The notes under the pieces are model-generated. The model saw nothing but the letters and a program-made list of their open reading frames with translations. It was not told the DNA's origin and did no database searches. The position numbers were made by a program, and so were the translations under genes. From positions 1-64,000 of the forward strand of contig NZ_JDTK01000013.1 of assembly GCF_000770925.1 (NCBI RefSeq): a stretch of DNA of 64,000 bases, read 5' to 3'. Below are positions 1-61,294 of this stretch, piece by piece; the first letter of the stretch is position 1; each line of letters begins with the position of its first letter. This stretch comes from Bifidobacterium ruminantium DSM 6489. GTDB lineage: Bacteria > Actinomycetota > Actinomycetes > Actinomycetales > Bifidobacteriaceae.

Positions 1-126
1 TGTCCGATTCTGCAGAAACGGACACTCAGGGGTCAATTTCACCTATCTGTCTGTCCGTTTCTCCCGAATCGGACAGACAGGCATCAAAATAAAGCGCTCC
101 TGTGTCCGAATCGCCAGAATCGGACA
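1..126. repeat. 51-bp-period palindrome array, cluster 1 (3 units, may extend left of the window)
   Basis: Three 24-bp imperfect palindromes start at 1, 52 and 103, exactly 51 bp apart. The consensus arms are TGTCCGATTCTG and CAGAATCGGACA. The 27-bp intervals are not conserved. The array lies beyond the 3' end of the glycosyltransferase gene and begins at the window edge, so its true length is unknown. The third unit has arms extended to about 16 bp (94-109 and 120-135). The family is repeated at 2325-2450 and 3871-4149. Confidence 0.9.
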
Positions 127-195: not shown

Positions 196-1227
196 TCAGT
201 TGAATCCGACCACGTGCTCCGCGACGAAATATCCCTTGCGGATCACGAACCGGCCGAGCGAACCGTGCAGGTTCAGCGCGCGTGACATCGCCTTCTTGCG
301 GACGTCCTTGTAGATTGTCGGCGAATATGCCTTGATATCCGCCCACAGGGCCTTCTTTTTCTCGTAATTCGCCGGGTCGCGCGAGAGGATCATGAATACG
401 CTCGCCACGGAGCTTTCAATCGCAAGAAAATGAATCATATAGCGATACAGGCCGTCTGGCACCGTACCTCGTTCGGGGGTGGCGCGCACCATGCACTGGT
501 TGACGAGCCGCAGCTGGTCCACACGTCGGATCATCACGTCCGTCTGCACGCTTTGGCCGTCGCGGCCGATGAAATAGTGATAGAACGGCGTGTCCAGATA
601 CTGCAGCGACTTGACCCACGGGAACGGCTGATACGCGTAGATGAAGTCCACGTAGAACGTGTGCTCCGGCAGCTGCATCTTCGATTCGCGCACCACGGCC
701 GTACGGTAGATCAGCGCGTGCATGAGAATGTATTCGGTCAGGCCGAAATGTCCCAGATCGTCCCAAGTGAGCCGCTTGCCGGGCTCCATGGCGTGACGGA
801 AGTTCACGACGTGCTTGTTGCGCTTGCCCACCTTGTCGTACACGTAGTTGGTGACGAGCATGTCGAGCGGGTCGTCCTTGCCGACCTCGTCGCGCAGCAC
901 GGCCAGAACCTGTTCCAGTGATTCGGGACCGACCCAATCGTCCGCGTCCACGACCTTCACGTACATGCCGCTCGCCGCCGCAATGCCGGTGTTGACGGCG
1001 CCGCCGTGCCCCTTGTTCTCTTGATGGATCGCGCGCACGATTCCCGGATGGCGGGACTCGAACGTCTTGGCCATGTCCAGCGTGCCGTCGGACGAACCGT
1101 CGTCGACGATCAGCACTTCGATGTCGTCGTTGCGCTTCGCCGCGATCAACGACGAGACGCACCGTTCCAGGTATTCCGTCATGTTGTACGCGGGCACCAC
1201 GAAGGTGAGCGTCTTCTTCTCCTGCAT
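196..1227 (-). CDS. Family 2 glycosyltransferase
   Basis: A 343-residue GT-A fold glycosyltransferase that probably transfers a sugar from a nucleotide-sugar donor to an envelope glycan or glycolipid. Near the N terminus are VVPAYNMTEYLERCV, the nucleotide-binding DDGSSDGT motif and the metal-binding DADDW motif. The C-terminal half is family-typical but carries no recognisable specificity motif. I chose the ATG at 1227 because GAGGAAG lies just upstream; the longer upstream extension has no good ribosome site. No signal peptide or membrane segment is seen, so it is probably cytosolic or peripheral. No neighbouring gene reveals the acceptor. Confidence 0.88.
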   Translation of the reverse strand: MQEKKTLTFVVPAYNMTEYLERCVSSLIAAKRNDDIEVLIVDDGSSDGTLDMAKTFESRHPGIVRAIHQENKGHGGAVNTGIAAASGMYVKVVDADDWVGPESLEQVLAVLRDEVGKDDPLDMLVTNYVYDKVGKRNKHVVNFRHAMEPGKRLTWDDLGHFGLTEYILMHALIYRTAVVRESKMQLPEHTFYVDFIYAYQPFPWVKSLQYLDTPFYHYFIGRDGQSVQTDVMIRRVDQLRLVNQCMVRATPERGTVPDGLYRYMIHFLAIESSVASVFMILSRDPANYEKKKALWADIKAYSPTIYKDVRKKAMSRALNLHGSLGRFVIRKGYFVAEHVVGFN

Positions 1228-1430
1228 AATCTTCCTCGTATCGGGCTCACGTCGAGCCATGCGGTTGGTCGCAGCTGGTCTATCTGCGTCGGCCAAAGCG
1301 TAACGAAACTAACGTAGCACCATGTGCGCGTTCGGGGAATGGCTCGTCGCACAAACGGTACCCTGAAATACGTAATCTGCACCTGAATTTTCCCCTAGGG
1401 TCATTTCAGGTGACATTGTGTCGGTCTTTG

Positions 1431-2228
1431 TCAAATGCTGTTGTTTTGTTCTTGCGATTCGGTTGCGATTGCTTCGTCCGTTTCGTCGTTTTCCGTTTCG
1501 GCTGGCGATTTGTCTTGCGATTTCGAGGCTTTCTTTTCCTGCTTTTCTCGCTTCGCGTTTTCCTTCGCTTCGCGCGCGGCCTGCTTTTCCGCGTCGCGCA
1601 TGGCTTTTTCGCTTTCGTAGCGCAGTTCCGGTTTGGCTTCCATACGGCTCAGACCGTACCAGGCCAGATTCACGATATGCGCGGCGAGTTGCTCTTTGCT
1701 GAGCTTGCGCTGGTCGGCCCAATACTGGCAGGTGTACACGGTCATGCCGATGAGCATCTGCGCATAATACGGCACGCTTTTGGCCGGCAGATGCTGGCGT
1801 TTGAACGCTTCGGTGAGAATGTCCTCCACGCGTACTGCGACGTCTCCGAGCAGTGAATTGAACGAGTTGGATGGGTCGGTTTTCGGCGAATCGCGGGTGA
1901 GCACGCGGAATCCTTCGGCGTTTTCCTCCACGTAGGTGAGTAGCGCCAATGCGGTGCGTTCCACAATTTGGCGCGGATGCGCTTTCGGGTCGGACAGCGC
2001 GTTGATGAGAACGTCGGTGAGCGCGCGCATTTCGCGGTCCACCACCACGGCGTACAGGCCTTCCTTTCCTCCGAAATGTTCGTAGACGATGGGTTTCGAC
2101 ACTTTTGCGGTCGAGGCGATCTCTTCCACGCTCACTGCTTCGAATCCCTTGGCCGCGAACAGCGATCGACCGATTTCGATAAGCTGTTCGCGCCGCTGGT
2201 ACGACGTCATTCTGGATGTATTGGCCAT
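1431..2228 (-). CDS. TetR/AcrR-family transcriptional regulator with a charged C-terminal tail
   Basis: A 265-residue regulator. The N-terminal helix-turn-helix reads VEEIASTAKVSKPIVYEHFGGKEGLY, typical of TetR proteins, and is followed by an all-helical ligand/dimer domain. After about residue 205 comes a 60-residue tail very rich in K, E, A and S, probably disordered, which ordinary TetR proteins (about 200 residues) lack. The start at 2228 (MANTSRMT) is preferred; a second in-frame Met six codons later is possible. The gene is transcribed away from ftsY, and the divergent intergenic region holds palindrome cluster 2. Target genes and ligand are unknown. Confidence 0.85.
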   Translation of the reverse strand: MANTSRMTSYQRREQLIEIGRSLFAAKGFEAVSVEEIASTAKVSKPIVYEHFGGKEGLYAVVVDREMRALTDVLINALSDPKAHPRQIVERTALALLTYVEENAEGFRVLTRDSPKTDPSNSFNSLLGDVAVRVEDILTEAFKRQHLPAKSVPYYAQMLIGMTVYTCQYWADQRKLSKEQLAAHIVNLAWYGLSRMEAKPELRYESEKAMRDAEKQAAREAKENAKREKQEKKASKSQDKSPAETENDETDEAIATESQEQNNSI

Positions 2229-2324
2229 ACTGTCCAGTTTTTCACGTCCCGTGGATAGTCCCTTGGCCGCCCGCCACTTCTCCATATCCCCGGATCCCCG
2301 AATCCATATTCCGCCGCCCACCAA

Positions 2325-2450
2325 TGTCCGATTCTGCAGAATTGGACACGTGGAGTATGGAATTTGGCTTTTGAGTGTCCGTTTCTGGGGAATCGGACGT
2401 TTGCGATGTTGGATTGGGAGCTTTTGTGTCCGATTCTGGGGAATCGGACA
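2325..2450. repeat. 51-bp-period palindrome array, cluster 2 (3 units)
   Basis: Units lie at 2325-2348, 2376-2399 and 2427-2450, again exactly 51 bp apart, between the divergent TetR regulator and ftsY. The first unit carries a variant right arm (CAGAATTGGACA, then CGTGG) that is also found in the second unit of cluster 3 at 3922, and the following intervals are partly alike. The two clusters therefore share ancestry. Confidence 0.9.
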
Positions 2451-2523: not shown

Positions 2524-3798
2524 ATGGATACGAATGTGATTATTGCGATTGTCGCGGTCGTCGTTATCGCGGCATTACTTGCGATTGGCGGATGGTGGTT
2601 CGGTAAGAGCCGCAAGTCCGCCGTGGACAAGTCCACTGAAGCGGCGAAGGCGAAGGCCGATGCTCGTTTGGCTACGGAGAAGTCCACCGCGCAATCTGCC
2701 GCCGCAAGTGCCGAAAACGCTGAGAAAACCAAGGAAGCCGCGGAATCCGCAGCGACGGAATCCGTGGAATCCGCGACTTCGTCTGCCACACCTGAATCGC
2801 CAGTGGCAACTGAACCAACTCCGGTCGGGTCAGCCGTAACTGAATCCGCGACCCCAGCCGTCGAAACCCCTGAAGCCGCCGGTACCCGCATGCAGCGCCT
2901 CAAAGCGCGCTTGTCCAAGTCCGGCAACCCGTTCGGTAGGGCACTGTTCAACATCCTCGCCAAGGATCAGCTCTCCGAAGCCGATTGGGAGGACGTCGAA
3001 GACACCCTCCTGCTTGCCGACGTGGGCGCGGAAGCCAGCGAACAGCTCGTTGAGGAACTGCGCAACGACGCCCGCATCGCAGGCCAGTCCGACCCGGCCG
3101 AAGTGCGTGCCGCGCTGAAGGATAAGCTTCTGAAGCTCGTCGGCACCGACGTCGACCGCCGTCTCAACGCCGACAAGGAAGGTGCGAACAAGCCGAGCGT
3201 CATCATCATGGTCGGTGTGAACGGCACCGGCAAGACCACTACCGCGGGCAAGCTTTCCCGCCTGCTCGTCTCCGAAGGCAAGCAGGTCATGCTGGGCGCG
3301 GCCGACACGTTCCGCGCCGCCGCCGCCGACCAGCTGGAGACCTGGGGCGCGAAGGTGGGCGTACCGGTCGTGCGCTCCGACAAGGACGGCGCCGACCCGG
3401 CTTCCGTGGCGTTCGAAGCGAGTGCCAAGGCCAAGGAGGCGAACGCCGACGTGCTCATCATCGACACCGCCGGTCGCCTGCAGAACAAGGCCAACCTGAT
3501 GGACGAGCTCGGCAAGATCCGCCGCGTCACCGAAAAGAACCTGCCCGTGGAAGAGGTGCTGCTCGTGCTCGACGCCACCACCGGCCAGAACGGCATGACG
3601 CAGGCCAAGGTGTTCGCCGAAGCGATCGGCATCACCGGCGTGGTCCTGTCCAAGCTCGACGGCTCCGCCAAGGGCGGCATCGTGATCTCCGTGCAGAAGG
3701 AGCTCGGCGTGCCCGTCAAGCTCGTCGGCCTGGGCGAAGGTCCGGACGACCTCGCCCCGTTCGATCCGGAAGGCTTCGTCGACGGCATCCTCGCCTGA
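2524..3798 (+). CDS. ftsY: Signal recognition particle receptor FtsY
   Basis: A 424-residue SRP receptor GTPase that docks SRP-ribosome complexes at the membrane Sec translocon. It begins with a hydrophobic helix (residues 4-22) that can anchor it in the membrane, as in other actinobacterial FtsY proteins. A roughly 100-residue Ala/Glu/Ser/Thr-rich acidic linker leads to the NG domain. The P-loop is GVNGTGKTT with K237; DTAGR and SKLDG follow. The ATG at 2524 sits 13 bp beyond the short AGG at 2512, so the ribosome site is modest. The gene ends at a strong terminator. The SRP RNA partner is encoded at 51.25 kb. Confidence 0.97.
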   Translation: MDTNVIIAIVAVVVIAALLAIGGWWFGKSRKSAVDKSTEAAKAKADARLATEKSTAQSAAASAENAEKTKEAAESAATESVESATSSATPESPVATEPTPVGSAVTESATPAVETPEAAGTRMQRLKARLSKSGNPFGRALFNILAKDQLSEADWEDVEDTLLLADVGAEASEQLVEELRNDARIAGQSDPAEVRAALKDKLLKLVGTDVDRRLNADKEGANKPSVIIMVGVNGTGKTTTAGKLSRLLVSEGKQVMLGAADTFRAAAADQLETWGAKVGVPVVRSDKDGADPASVAFEASAKAKEANADVLIIDTAGRLQNKANLMDELGKIRRVTEKNLPVEEVLLVLDATTGQNGMTQAKVFAEAIGITGVVLSKLDGSAKGGIVISVQKELGVPVKLVGLGEGPDDLAPFDPEGFVDGILA

Positions 3799-3870: not shown

Positions 3871-4149
3871 TGTCCGATTCCCCAGAATCGGACAAATAGG
3901 CCACTTCGGACCGCGCCTGGATGTCCGATTCTGCAGAATTGGACACGTGGCATACGGATTTCGCACTCAAAACGTCCGATTCTGGAAAATCGGACAAACA
4001 GGGTACTTCGAACCACATTTGAATGTCCGATTCTGGGGAAACGGACATTTGGGACCCTGATTTTGGCGCGCGAATGTCCGATTCTGGAGAATCGGACAAA
4101 CAAGGTTTCGATTTGGTACTTCAGATGTCCGATTCTGCAGAATCGGACA
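3871..4149. repeat. 51-bp-period palindrome array, cluster 3 (6 units)
   Basis: Six 24-bp palindromes start at 3871, 3922, 3973, 4024, 4075 and 4126: five consecutive intervals of exactly 51 bp. The unit is TGTCCGATTCTG + CAGAATCGGACA with a variable central tetranucleotide; the unit at 4126 is a perfect 24-bp palindrome. The 27-bp intervals differ, but the first and third match at 18 of 27 positions, mostly with transitions between them, so they diverged from duplicated units. The array sits between convergent ftsY and the antiporter gene, after the ftsY terminator. It is not a CRISPR array: the repeat is short and palindromic, the intervals are related, and no cas genes are nearby. Confidence 0.93.
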
Positions 4150-4162
4150 TTCGGTGTGGCGG

Positions 4163-5413
4163 TTACTCCGCGGATACGGTTTCGGAGGTTTCGGAGGTTT
4201 CGGAGGCTTCGGTGGTTCCGACGGTTGCAACAGTTTCGCCCGCGACCCCATCCACAGCACCCACCCCCGGCACCCTGCGGATCGTCAGCTTCAGCAACAG
4301 CGGTGCGACCAGTGTGACCAGCGAGATGATGAAGATGATCGTCGAATAGTATTCGCTGCCGAGCACGTGCTCGTTGAAGCCGATTTGCGCGGTGATCAGC
4401 GCCATTTCGCCACGCGGCACCATGCCCGCGCCAATCATCAGCGCGGAAGCTCCGCCGAAGCCGGCCATGCGTCCGCCCAGTCCGCAGCCGACGATCTTGG
4501 TGATCACGCCGAGAATCGTCATGATCACAATGAAGACAATCATCTTCGGATCGTCCACGCCCGTGGTCTGCAAACCGATGCCCACGAAGAACACCGGCAC
4601 GAACAACGTGTCGCCAACCGGTTCGATGTACCGGTCCGCCTCCTCGGCGTAATCGCTGTTGCTGACCGCGATGCCGGCGAAGAACGCGCCCACCGCGTAG
4701 CTCAACCCGGCCAGATTCGACGCCCACGCCATCGCAAGACAGATGATGATCGCCATCACCGCGATGCCGGAAGGCGCCTTCAGCACGCCTGCCAACGTCA
4801 TCAGCGCCGGCGCCACCCAGACCACCACCACGGCGGCTGCCACGAAGAACAGCACCTGCTTCAGAAGGATCATGCCGAGTCCGGCCACGTCCACGCTGCC
4901 GGTGTTGACGAGCGTGCACATCACGGATAGCAGAATCACGCCAATCACGTCATCCGCCACGGCCGCGCCGAGAATGGACACGCCCTCCTTGGAATCCAGC
5001 AGCCCGGCCTCTTTGAGCACCGCCACGGAGATCGACACGGACGTGGCGGAGAACACCACGCCGATGAATGCCGCCGGAATCGGCTTGAATCCGAACAGCA
5101 GGCTCACTCCGCCCATCACGGCCACGGGGAACACCACGCCCATGCACGCGATGATGATCGCGGCCTTCGAATACTTCTTCAGCAGCTGCAGATCGCAGCC
5201 GACGCCGCCCAGAAACATCAGAATGATGATGCCGAGGTCGCTGAACAGCGACAGCGAATCGCTCATGTGCAGCACGTTCAGCAGCGCCGGGCCGACGAGG
5301 ATGCCGACGAGAATCTGCCCGATCACTTCCGGCAGCTGCACCTTCCTGCAGATCAGTCCGGAGACCGTGGTCAGCATCAGAATGGCGCATAGTGAAATGA
5401 TGAACGTTGTCAT
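4163..5413 (-). CDS. CPA2-type cation:proton antiporter (Na+/H+ or K+/H+ exchanger)
   Basis: A 416-residue integral membrane protein of the monovalent cation:proton antiporter-2 family with about 12 hydrophobic segments. Family features include LPEVIGQILVGILVGP in the second segment and GAAVADDVIGVILL, whose paired Asp residues bind the cation/proton. MVPRGEMALI near the C terminus is also typical. There is no regulatory TrkA-N domain, unlike KefB/KefC. The last 20 residues are Ser/Glu/Thr-rich with a short SET repeat. The ATG at 5413 starts directly with the first membrane helix; the longer form adds an unlikely charged extension. Ion specificity cannot be read from sequence. Confidence 0.88.
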   Translation of the reverse strand: MTTFIISLCAILMLTTVSGLICRKVQLPEVIGQILVGILVGPALLNVLHMSDSLSLFSDLGIIILMFLGGVGCDLQLLKKYSKAAIIIACMGVVFPVAVMGGVSLLFGFKPIPAAFIGVVFSATSVSISVAVLKEAGLLDSKEGVSILGAAVADDVIGVILLSVMCTLVNTGSVDVAGLGMILLKQVLFFVAAAVVVVWVAPALMTLAGVLKAPSGIAVMAIIICLAMAWASNLAGLSYAVGAFFAGIAVSNSDYAEEADRYIEPVGDTLFVPVFFVGIGLQTTGVDDPKMIVFIVIMTILGVITKIVGCGLGGRMAGFGGASALMIGAGMVPRGEMALITAQIGFNEHVLGSEYYSTIIFIISLVTLVAPLLLKLTIRRVPGVGAVDGVAGETVATVGTTEASETSETSETVSAE

Positions 5414-5782
5414 AATTCTCGTCGCTCTCTCGTCCCGCACACCGCGCATATCGTGCGCCATGCGTCTCGCGCACGCCGCATGCGCCGCGCGTCACGTAGG
5501 TTTCCTGCATTCAACTTACTCCGACCTCGTCCTTCGCTCGTCGCCGCAATTTCATATTGCGATTGCCGGACGGCCATACCGCGGCCGTCGCCGCGTAATC
5601 CTTTTCGTTGAATTTCCGGCATTCCGCGACTTTGATGGGCGTTTTTCTCGCATGCCGTTACGTCGCCGTAACACGTCGTAACGTTTTCAAAACGCGGCCG
5701 GCGTTCGATATCGTTCTGTCAGCCCCACACGATGGGGACGGAAATGTTGAACCAAATATAGAGAAAGAAAGAGGAGGGTGAC
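5414..5782. other. Intergenic region between the antiporter and amtB promoters
   Basis: The 369 bp between divergent genes hold no supportable gene. The only structured element seen is a set of GTNAC/AAAAC repeats at 5657-5693, listed separately. The amtB ribosome site GAGGAGG is at 5770-5776. Confidence 0.7.
5657..5693 (+). promoter_or_regulatory. GlnR-box-like repeats upstream of amtB
   Basis: GTTAC (5657), GTAAC (5668), GTAAC (5678) and AAAAC (5689) are separated by 6, 5 and 6 bases. This resembles the actinobacterial GlnR operator, gTnAc-n6-GaAAc in tandem pairs, known from Streptomyces and Mycobacterium nitrogen genes. It lies about 90 bp upstream of the amtB start. That a GlnR-type regulator binds here is inference. 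Confidence 0.45.
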
Positions 5783-9438: not shown

Positions 9439-9814
9439 GCTGTTCGCCGTCCGTTCACGAAAAGTGGGGAACATATCACCTCACGTTCACTTCGGCAAAT
9501 CGAAATATGGGGATTTCACGACAAAACGGAAAATGTCCCCAAGTTTTCCACTTGGTTATCCCCACTCTGTGGAAAAGTCGGAACGTTTTCCACATGGTTA
9601 TCCCCAATATGTGGATAACTCGGCTTTTTTCGATTTTCTTATCCACAATGGGGTCTTCCGCGCGTGTCGCGGATCCGCGGAATGCCCCGATGCGGAGATT
9701 CATCCACAATCGCGGAGCCATGCCGGACGTGACGGCACGCAGGTATTATGGTTTTCCTCAGCATTGAAGATATTTTCGGTCGATTTCCTCGGTCGATGTC
9801 GCGTTTGGAGAGAT
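9439..9814 (+). promoter_or_regulatory. dnaB upstream region with a cluster of DnaA boxes
   Basis: This 376-bp gene-free region contains four exact matches to the DnaA box TTWTNCACA: 9568-9576 (minus), 9586-9594 (plus), 9610-9618 (minus) and 9639-9647 (plus). Near matches lie at 9544, 9556, 9598 and 9700. The segment 9540-9660 is AT-richer than its surroundings. It could be a DnaA-controlled dnaB promoter or a DnaA-titration site. dnaA and dnaN are not nearby, so it is unlikely to be oriC. Confidence 0.65.
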
Positions 9815-38832: not shown

Positions 38833-38856
38833 TGTCCGTTTCCGGCGATTCGGACA
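38833..38856. repeat. Solitary copy of the 24-bp palindrome
   Basis: TGTCCGTTTCCG and GCGATTCGGACA match the array unit of 1-126, 2325-2450 and 3871-4149; the outer arms extend to GAATGTCCG / CGGACATTC. It lies between asd and the DUF5701-like gene, about 55 bp before the latter's start, with no second copy 51 bp away. Confidence 0.75.
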
Positions 38857-61270: not shown

Positions 61271-61294
61271 TTTCGGTTTCCGGCGAATCGGACG
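61271..61294. repeat. Degraded copy of the 24-bp palindrome
   Basis: The right arm GGCGAATCGGACG is recognisable and the left arm is eroded (TTTCGGTTTCC). It lies about 30 bp upstream of the PEBP-family gene. The relationship is likely but not certain. Confidence 0.4.

Follow-up and report, generated by a model that had tools for sequence, protein, structure and literature searches.

Why a 24-bp palindrome should recur six times at a step of exactly 51 bp in the gap between two convergent genes is the question raised by this locus of genome G000 (other G numbers denote other Bifidobacterium genomes in a set of 112). In the window, by which we mean the whole stretch of 64,000 nucleotides that was analysed, the six palindromes located by an earlier note were all recovered at their positions, 51 bp apart (Table 1). 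They have the form TGTCCGATTC-N4-GAATCGGACA, with arm mismatches in units 2-4 and perfect arms in the other three (1, 5 and 6), and 72 bp separate the array from the end of ftsY on one side, 13 bp from that of the antiporter gene on the other. Scanning the window with TGTCCGATTCTGNAGAATCGGACA and three mismatches gave 23 rows on both strands, which correspond to 12 sites, and none in 100 dinucleotide shuffles; besides the six-unit array the sites make up two arrays of three units, both likewise with a pitch of 51 bp. When the centre was left free, the scan of the window also picked up a weak single site at 38833, with 2 arm mismatches, and another at 61271, with 4.

Table 1. Palindrome arrays, their units and adjoining genes in the window.
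Feature	Position	Strand	Remarks
Three-unit array	1..126	.	Contig end; 3' of the family 2 glycosyltransferase gene
Family 2 glycosyltransferase	196..1296	-	Neighbour; ORF and domain scan
TetR-family regulator	1431..2324	-	Neighbour; domain scan; species distribution out of step with the arrays
Three-unit array	2325..2450	.	Between the divergent tetR and ftsY genes
ftsY (SRP54-type GTPase)	2524..3798	+	Adjoins two arrays; ORF and domain scan
Six-unit palindrome array	3871..4149	.	Pitch 51 bp; noncoding; in the gap where ftsY and the Na+/H+ antiporter gene converge
Unit 1, TGTCCGATTCCCCAGAATCGGACA	3871..3894	.	Motif scan
Unit 2, TGTCCGATTCTGCAGAATTGGACA	3922..3945	.	Motif scan
Unit 3, CGTCCGATTCTGGAAAATCGGACA	3973..3996	.	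Motif scan
Unit 4, TGTCCGATTCTGGGGAAACGGACA	4024..4047	.	Motif scan
Unit 5, TGTCCGATTCTGGAGAATCGGACA	4075..4098	.	Motif scan
Unit 6, TGTCCGATTCTGCAGAATCGGACA	4126..4149	.	Motif scan; perfect palindrome
Na+/H+ exchanger	4163..5461	-	Neighbour; ORF and domain scan

The palindrome belongs to a family that is spread over part of the genus. G000 holds 72 sites with at most three mismatches in the 20 arm positions, and a 22-bp core with two mismatches found at least one match in 45 of the 112 Bifidobacterium genomes and at least 15 sites in 16 of them (range 15 to 74); a reversed-pattern control never gave more than one match per genome among the 112, and 22 genomes that belong to the order but not to this family yielded no match to the motif. 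An exact-pattern scan of a GTDB-wide collection, from which near records of the window genome are possibly absent, returned 41 stretches, 39 of them from six Bifidobacterium taxa (B. erythrocebi, B. moukalabense, B. catenulatum subsp. kashiwanohense, B. pongonis, sp. N4G05 and B. merycicum) and two being single matches in alphaproteobacterial MAGs, a number that we estimate to be about that expected by chance. Three genomes of distant species (G106, G108 and G109) carry a changed motif, roughly aaacGTCCGNNNCTATAGNNNCGGACgttt; the centre of their units is different and often reads TATA, the arms are longer (AAAC...GTTT), and their arrays reach 14 units. In the draft assembly of G000 several contigs start or end in or near an array (C5:1, C6:8, C67:8 and the ends of C28 and C29); the arrays probably break assemblies, so that site counts in drafts are probably too low.

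We also compared the places of arrays between genomes, using the flanking sequence as anchor and accepting sites with up to five mismatches within 300 bp. Sites were present at the same place for 21 of 26 arrays of G100 in G069, 18 of 24 in G084, 12 of 20 in G024 and 10 of 19 in G000, the remainder of the 26 G100 arrays being without a syntenic flank. Unit numbers of orthologous arrays vary by steps of 51 bp: the array between tetR and ftsY has three units in G000, two in G100 and four in G024, and its place is also occupied in G084 (one unit) and G069 (two), with two units lying beside tetR in G062.

The pitch was determined in the listed parts of six genomes (G000, G024, G062, G069, G084 and G100). 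Each genome contributes 15 to 32 arrays with 1 to 6 units apiece, and the total is 156. Among neighbour gaps of up to 110 bp, 172 of 183 measured exactly 51 and the rest 48, 50, 52 or 102, with the counts over G100, G084 and G069 not being independent, as these genomes have orthologous arrays in common. Free scatter around 51 bp, which the earlier note had named as the outcome that would speak against its reading, is thus not what these gaps display. Restricting the count to arrays outside any called ORF left 124 of 134 gaps at exactly 51 (143 of 153 in a laxer noncoding class of 120 arrays, which includes 27 arrays that the stricter class omits because they fall within called ORFs, some of these being backed by Pfam). 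All nine gaps of 48, 50 or 52 fall in arrays outside called ORFs, as against none of the 49 gaps in arrays within genes or disputed ORFs. In G106, G108 and G109, where 10 of the 15 fetched loci entered the count and four gaps above 110 were left out as non-neighbours, 39 of 51 gaps were exactly 51, six were 52, three were 50 and one each 43, 53 and 103.

Motif statistics, calculated after removal of 6 duplicate rows of 289, gave high information at ten arm positions per side, moderate information at the four centre positions and weak information outward. Pairing of the arms within units was then set against that of arms shuffled between units, and no clear excess was found (largest z 1.4): the most variable arm position, position 7, was paired at 0.678 as against 0.720 after shuffling, and the sole clear excess occurred at the first flanking pair (z 4.4). 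This absence of arm covariation argues that the unit acts at the DNA level, through two half-sites that are independent of each other, and not as an RNA stem; the string of RNA hairpins, one of the options in the earlier note, is therefore unlikely. An array-wide dyad symmetry was not detected, the same variant being present on both interval-facing arms in 4 of 176 cases (6.0 after shuffling). With the arrays of six genomes oriented from oriC to the terminus and four outlying segments removed, an A-to-T variant at arm position 7 was seen in 62 left and 20 right arms. This preference, whose p of 4e-6 is inflated by shared orthologues, persists in G062 after flipping and could be due to a replication-strand mutation bias or to a real polarity.

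The 27-bp intervals follow a pattern of their own. A pyrimidine-purine (YR) step is found at positions 3-4 in 135 and at positions 24-25 in 132 of 144 intervals, 21 bp apart, together with an A/T-rich stretch at positions 13-15 and C10 and G18; outside ORFs the steps occur in 110 and 116 of 124 intervals, and the pattern is weaker in the outer flanks of arrays. All four YR dinucleotides are present, which suggests that shape rather than bases may be read. In G024 the identity of intervals within arrays, 9.6 of 27, equals the column-shuffled value of 9.6, so that the pattern there is not merely common ancestry. Within-array identity in G000, G100 and G084 lies above column shuffles, which does point to duplication. 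In the window array intervals 1 and 3 are identical at 18 of 27 positions, as an eye count confirmed, and odd intervals resemble odd and even intervals even ones (a 102-bp repeat), the likely trace of growth through two-unit duplication. The intervals, described in the earlier note as diverged but related, are less conserved than the arms and are also patterned by YR steps and an AT-rich middle, which that note missed.

To compare arms with intervals we used orthologous arrays of equal unit number, equal spacing and the same strand (five arrays for G100-G084 and five for G100-G069). Outside called ORFs 10 of 400 arm positions had changed, as against 82 of 809 positions in intervals and 27-bp outer flanks (p 4.5e-7), with site recognition at up to five mismatches introducing a slight bias toward conserved arms. 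The laxer class, from a comparison that covered 9 and 11 arrays under the same conditions, gave 18 of 500 and 113 of 1079 (p about 1e-6), so the stricter class made the results slightly stronger. The contrast is uneven between species pairs: outside ORFs G100-G084 separates arms from intervals (p 1.6e-5) and not from outer flanks (p 0.15), and G100-G069 separates them from flanks (4e-5) and from intervals (p 0.044), the latter difference being not significant in the laxer class (p 0.35). Arms of arrays inside genes change more (13 of 120). Intervals as conserved as the arms, the other outcome by which the earlier note would have been contradicted, are thus not what is seen, and its view that arms and spacing are conserved as in a dimeric DNA site, rather than by plain tandem duplication, is supported; gene conversion between arrays could also cause the likeness of the arms.

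The arms of an array differ in how well they are kept. Outside ORFs a mismatch is present in 29 of 136 outward-facing terminal arms as against 155 of 268 interval-facing arms, and in arrays within genes outward (11 of 34) and inward arms (19 of 60) do not differ; of the earlier arm-mismatch counts, one omitted arrays with a gap above 60 and another those with a gap outside 49-53. Outside genes the end half-sites thus count most, which fits cooperative binding or an end-recognising enzyme. If binding is cooperative, the end half-site would be best kept because it has no neighbour to help it. Simple cooperativity would also predict better-kept single sites, whereas these, with 7.5% arm mismatch, are no better kept than inner arms.

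A codon-score test placed at least 36 of the 156 arrays inside genes of 15 protein groups, some one-unit cases among the 36 being weak and perhaps due to chance, and 27 further arrays lie within called ORFs and fail the test. All 36 are read in one frame of the three, which yields a 17-residue repeat with the motif (V/M/L)SDS(G/P/A)ESD (SDSxESD). The bias towards this frame probably reflects what is tolerated, since peptides read from the other two would be hydrophobic and contain cysteine or tryptophan. With a cruder gene caller 59 of 152 array groups fell inside ORFs, 27 into convergent, 23 into divergent and 38 into same-direction gaps, and 5 at segment ends. Among the 36, Pfam domains support as hosts a P-type ATPase, which holds two arrays, two FtsX permeases and a D-glutamate-cyclase-like protein; among the 27 they support a fused carboxyltransferase, whose array separates CT_C_D from CT_A_B, and a biotin carboxylase, whose array separates the carboxylase from the biotinyl domain. 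In one gene of G024 a unit near the start corresponds to a 51-bp in-frame gap in G000. A two-unit in-frame array between two ABC-transporter ORFs (G069:C1:1959279-1959353) appears to fuse both, leaving a single uninterrupted frame that is 795 residues long or longer, and G068 has a nearly identical two-unit array at 1749054.

The position of the arrays on the chromosome was analysed in four complete genomes for which every match is listed; in single-contig records the DnaA domain match starts at 445-526, and the record start stands for oriC. Within 300 kb of it lie 17 of 20 sites in G059, 30 of 32 in G062, 28 of 32 in G068 and 32 of 35 in G069, or 107 of 119 in total. Counted as separate clusters, these are 11 of 13, 12 of 13, 16 of 19 and 15 of 17, respectively (binomial p 4e-5 to 1e-7, with the 300 kb taken on both sides and the lengths of G059 and G068 rounded), and the sites of all four genomes are mostly confined to one chromosome domain, as would be expected of matS-like sites. 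The arrays occupy one arm in each genome, the right one in G059, G068 and G069 and the left one in G062, a genome in which tetR is inverted (opposite strand) and shares this other arm with the arrays. At up to four mismatches the first 300-320 kb contain 71 sites in G024, 57 in G100 and 54 in G084. On the other side of oriC none was found in 100 kb of G024, 80 kb of G100, 80 kb of G084, 37 kb of G069 and 140 kb of G062.

In draft genomes we matched ORFs flanking the loci at 50% identity or more to the origin regions of G100 and G024, a comparison in which paralogues elsewhere may also score. The flanking genes corresponded to the origin region at 9 of 10 loci in B. moukalabense, 10 of 10 in N4G05, 4 of 4 in B. 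pongonis, 1 of 1 in B. merycicum and 5 of 7 in B. erythrocebi, and at 7 of 15 in G106, G108 and G109. By this measure linkage to the origin is strong in one species group and looser outside it, and, given that arrays and inverted tetR share the other arm in G062, it could be historical. The strong clustering fits the nucleoid- or partition-type array that the earlier note had envisaged; no binder was found, and the mechanism set out below is what we infer. That note had not noticed the linkage to the origin, the spread through the genus, the in-frame copies or the better-kept outer half-sites, features that for the most part lie beyond the window.

Several candidate proteins were considered and rejected. 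The gene of the TetR regulator is found in 99 of 112 genomes irrespective of whether they carry arrays, and no array unit was seen upstream of it in 20 further genomes, among them G106, G108 and G109 (three weak matches with 4-5 mismatches). An XRE regulator whose gene contains arrays and also adjoins some occurs in 45 of 112 genomes and is missing from the array-bearing G059, G062, G068 and G075. A ParB paralogue (Noc-like) was judged by ParB_N matches, of which there are 2-3 per array-bearing genome and 1-4 in most others; where both pieces are listed, as for G012 and G063, a pair of adjacent matches represents the two halves of a single gene, and most array-bearing genomes have a single piece listed. 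The chromosomal ParB of many Bifidobacterium genomes (e.g. G012:C7:24029-24403) has its ParB_N match in two pieces, as if interrupted by an insertion. Outlier arrays might have marked the gene of a binder, and inspection of the ORFs by eye revealed no DNA-binding gene at those of G069 (1959 kb) and G062 (724 kb).

The sequences themselves establish an array that is maintained at the DNA level, keeps its geometry and is linked to the origin, together with the conservation of its arms, the interval pattern and the in-frame occurrence. The reading that we prefer, tentatively, is that of a cooperative binding array of a putative protein marking an origin-side chromosome domain. Each 51-bp unit would be the recognition site for one copy (a dimer or a pair of dimers) of a putative sequence-specific DNA-binding protein, which would read the half-sites of about 10 bp (TGTCCGATTC) directly and the 27-bp interval mainly via its shape, that is, kinkable pyrimidine-purine steps 21 bp apart and an A/T-rich middle, so that the 51-bp pitch would let adjacent units associate laterally and form an unbroken nucleoprotein patch. 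With some 15 to 30 patches distributed over about 200-300 kb to one side of the origin, this region of the chromosome would be marked or organised much as MatP does it, but by arrays and near the origin; sites landing in genes would persist if the 17-residue repeat that they add is in frame and soluble. A binding array would explain the pitch, the independence of the half-sites, the interval shape, the conserved ends and the position, and the same pitch with a changed motif in the distant species looks as if site and protein had co-evolved. A bolder version, which we regard as possible but less likely, is a previously unknown actinobacterial chromosome-domain system, in which a protein would assemble on 51-bp-locked arrays along one origin-proximal arm, selection would be strong enough to preserve sites even in enzyme and transporter genes, and motif and protein would co-evolve between Bifidobacterium clades at constant geometry. 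Against the binding array it counts that the candidate binders TetR, XRE and the ParB paralogue do not track the arrays, that the contrast between arms and intervals is uneven between species pairs and that the in-gene arrays are compatible with a mobile repeat as well. If a host protein does bind them, the arrays would be an origin-side, array-based counterpart of MatP-type domain markers in a human gut and oral genus, and their exact pitch offers a directly testable probe for that protein.

The alternative that deserves most weight, a real possibility that we rate somewhat lower, is a selfish palindromic repeat like the Rickettsia palindromic elements, whose modules would insert between and inside genes and be kept where harmless (in frame, in linkers), the outer arms being the ends for a mobilising enzyme. 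It accounts better than a binding array for the occurrence in genes and for gain and loss, given the single frame of the 36 or more in-gene arrays, the Pfam domains flanking arrays in the P-type ATPase, fused carboxyltransferase and biotin carboxylase and the in-frame presence and absence of 51 bp between G024 and G000; the best-conserved outer arms, the TG...CA ends and single interval pairs identical at up to 24 of 27 positions in G024 and 26 in G100 agree with it too. Such an element sits less easily with sites that are mostly limited to one chromosome region and with intervals most of which are not recent copies, their between-array identity in G024 being 10.0 of 27 as against 9.8 after column shuffling. 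Mobilisation by a RAYT finds little to build on, since a search for the Y1 family (IS200/RAYT-type transposases, PF01797) was positive in 4 and negative in 12 of the 16 array-bearing genomes. The genes between neighbouring arrays of G024 look ordinary, and the arrays were rejected as insertion-sequence ends after an inspection of protein starts by eye showed no transposase between close arrays at 97.5-112.5 kb. The window array had no blastn match at E 0.01 in 50,697 phage and 72,556 plasmid records, target duplication was not recognised in a few alignments, and the exact pitch and patterned intervals outside genes require no transposition. Matches between recently copied arrays stop at or near the array ends, which is uninformative, since all palindromes align. 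Selfish repeat and binding array are compatible, as a mobile repeat may have been recruited as binding site; if the arrays are selfish, they would be palindromic repeats held to a strict physical pitch, and the 17-codon length of this pitch would permit life inside proteins.

Transcription signals, in the form of RNA hairpins, terminators or regulon operators, appear improbable. Arrays are frequently near gene ends, and the unit at 103-126 sits inside a longer inverted repeat (94-135), whose 19-bp arms, GCGCTCCTG...CAGGAGCGC, contain one mismatch. With the T-rich DNA that comes next on the minus strand, this repeat resembles a terminator of the glycosyltransferase gene, for which the unit apparently serves as stem. 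An Rfam microRNA-precursor model also matched 4073-4151 with 40 bits, a score that reflects the inverted repeat alone and compares with a gathering score of 100, no Rfam family being found in the window array at gathering score. Yet arrays occur in convergent, divergent and same-direction gaps alike, next to mostly unrelated housekeeping-type genes, compensatory changes are absent from the arms, and hairpins would not need a 51-bp lock. A cas-less CRISPR array has precedent: Table 1 of Briner et al. 2015 (PMC4521832) gives TGTCCGATTCTCCAGAATCGGACA (24 nt, 8) for B. dentium and ATGTCCGATTCTGCAGAATCGGACA (25 nt, 16) for B. ruminantium as 'Undetermined', a class that in the available part of the paper denotes arrays without cas genes. 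None of seven window genes scanned nearby is a cas gene. The earlier note, whose author knew of no described element with this form, missed that table; the matches listed from the open-licence PMC literature held no other account, and the repeat is not mentioned in the available part of the text of the B. dentium genome paper. Palindromic repeats of 24-25 nt with regular spacers would suit such an orphan CRISPR, and the sequence is the same, but the array intervals share a consensus, unlike CRISPR spacers, which are unrelated to each other, and some are common to species at orthologous loci. The parts read hold 15 to 32 short arrays per genome, dozens of loci in all, many of them translated, and the phage and plasmid records, as mentioned, contain no match to the window array. 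We therefore consider a CRISPR origin very improbable, and whichever of the other readings holds, the sequence filed as CRISPR is probably none. Plain tandem duplication or an assembly artefact is refuted as the sole explanation and has hardly any likelihood left: the likeness of odd and of even intervals in the window array speaks for duplication, whereas intervals have otherwise diverged at constant arms and pitch, and arrays are present in many genomes, including complete ones.

Known systems share single traits with the arrays. REP/BIME and REPIN elements are short interspersed palindromes that occur in many copies together with RAYT transposases; the arrays differ from them by being limited to a region, by the fixed 51-bp pitch and by the lack of a Y1 transposase in 12 of 16 array-bearing genomes. 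ParB/parS resembles the arrays in that palindromic sites cluster near oriC, but the array motif is unrelated and ParB copy number is independent of the arrays. Canonical parS-like sites, spotted with TGTTTCACGTGAAACA, which we take to be the parS-like consensus, lie apart from the arrays to the left of oriC: G024 has five in the last 8 kb or so before the record start, and G069 has five in about 10 kb. MatP/matS of the E. coli Ter macrodomain, described in the available part of PMC3330122 with a 13-bp site in 23 copies over 800 kb, also has short sites within one chromosome domain, and the way of working proposed here would be the same; the differences are arrays instead of single sites, the origin side instead of the terminus, a longer site and no MatP-like protein found. 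Rickettsia palindromic elements (RPE; Ogata et al. 2000, via PMC3767692) measure 100-150 bp and are found in Rickettsia and Wolbachia. As far as the available part of that source goes, they too have many palindromic copies, in frame in unrelated genes and at the same place in related species, and like them the arrays are present in pre-existing ORFs without loss of frame (36 arrays, with Pfam domains kept around them). The arrays are distinguished from RPE by 24-bp palindromes in a 51-bp unit, 1 to 14 units, shape-patterned intervals, linkage to the origin and occurrence in Bifidobacterium. Other coding palindromic repeats (Wolbachia; PARCEL) likewise have in-frame copies inside genes, PARCEL being a 75-nt tandem coding repeat of membrane proteins for which the accessible part of PMC2996958 mentions no intergenic copies.

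Two further repeats were noticed in the window. A 42-bp tandem repeat, GTTTTCCACATGGTTATCCCCAATATGTGGAAAACTCGGAAC, which is itself partly palindromic, occupies 9543-9623 directly after glnD, and a 9-bp tandem repeat at 4178-4217, adjoining the six-unit array, encodes SET repeats at the C-terminus of the antiporter.
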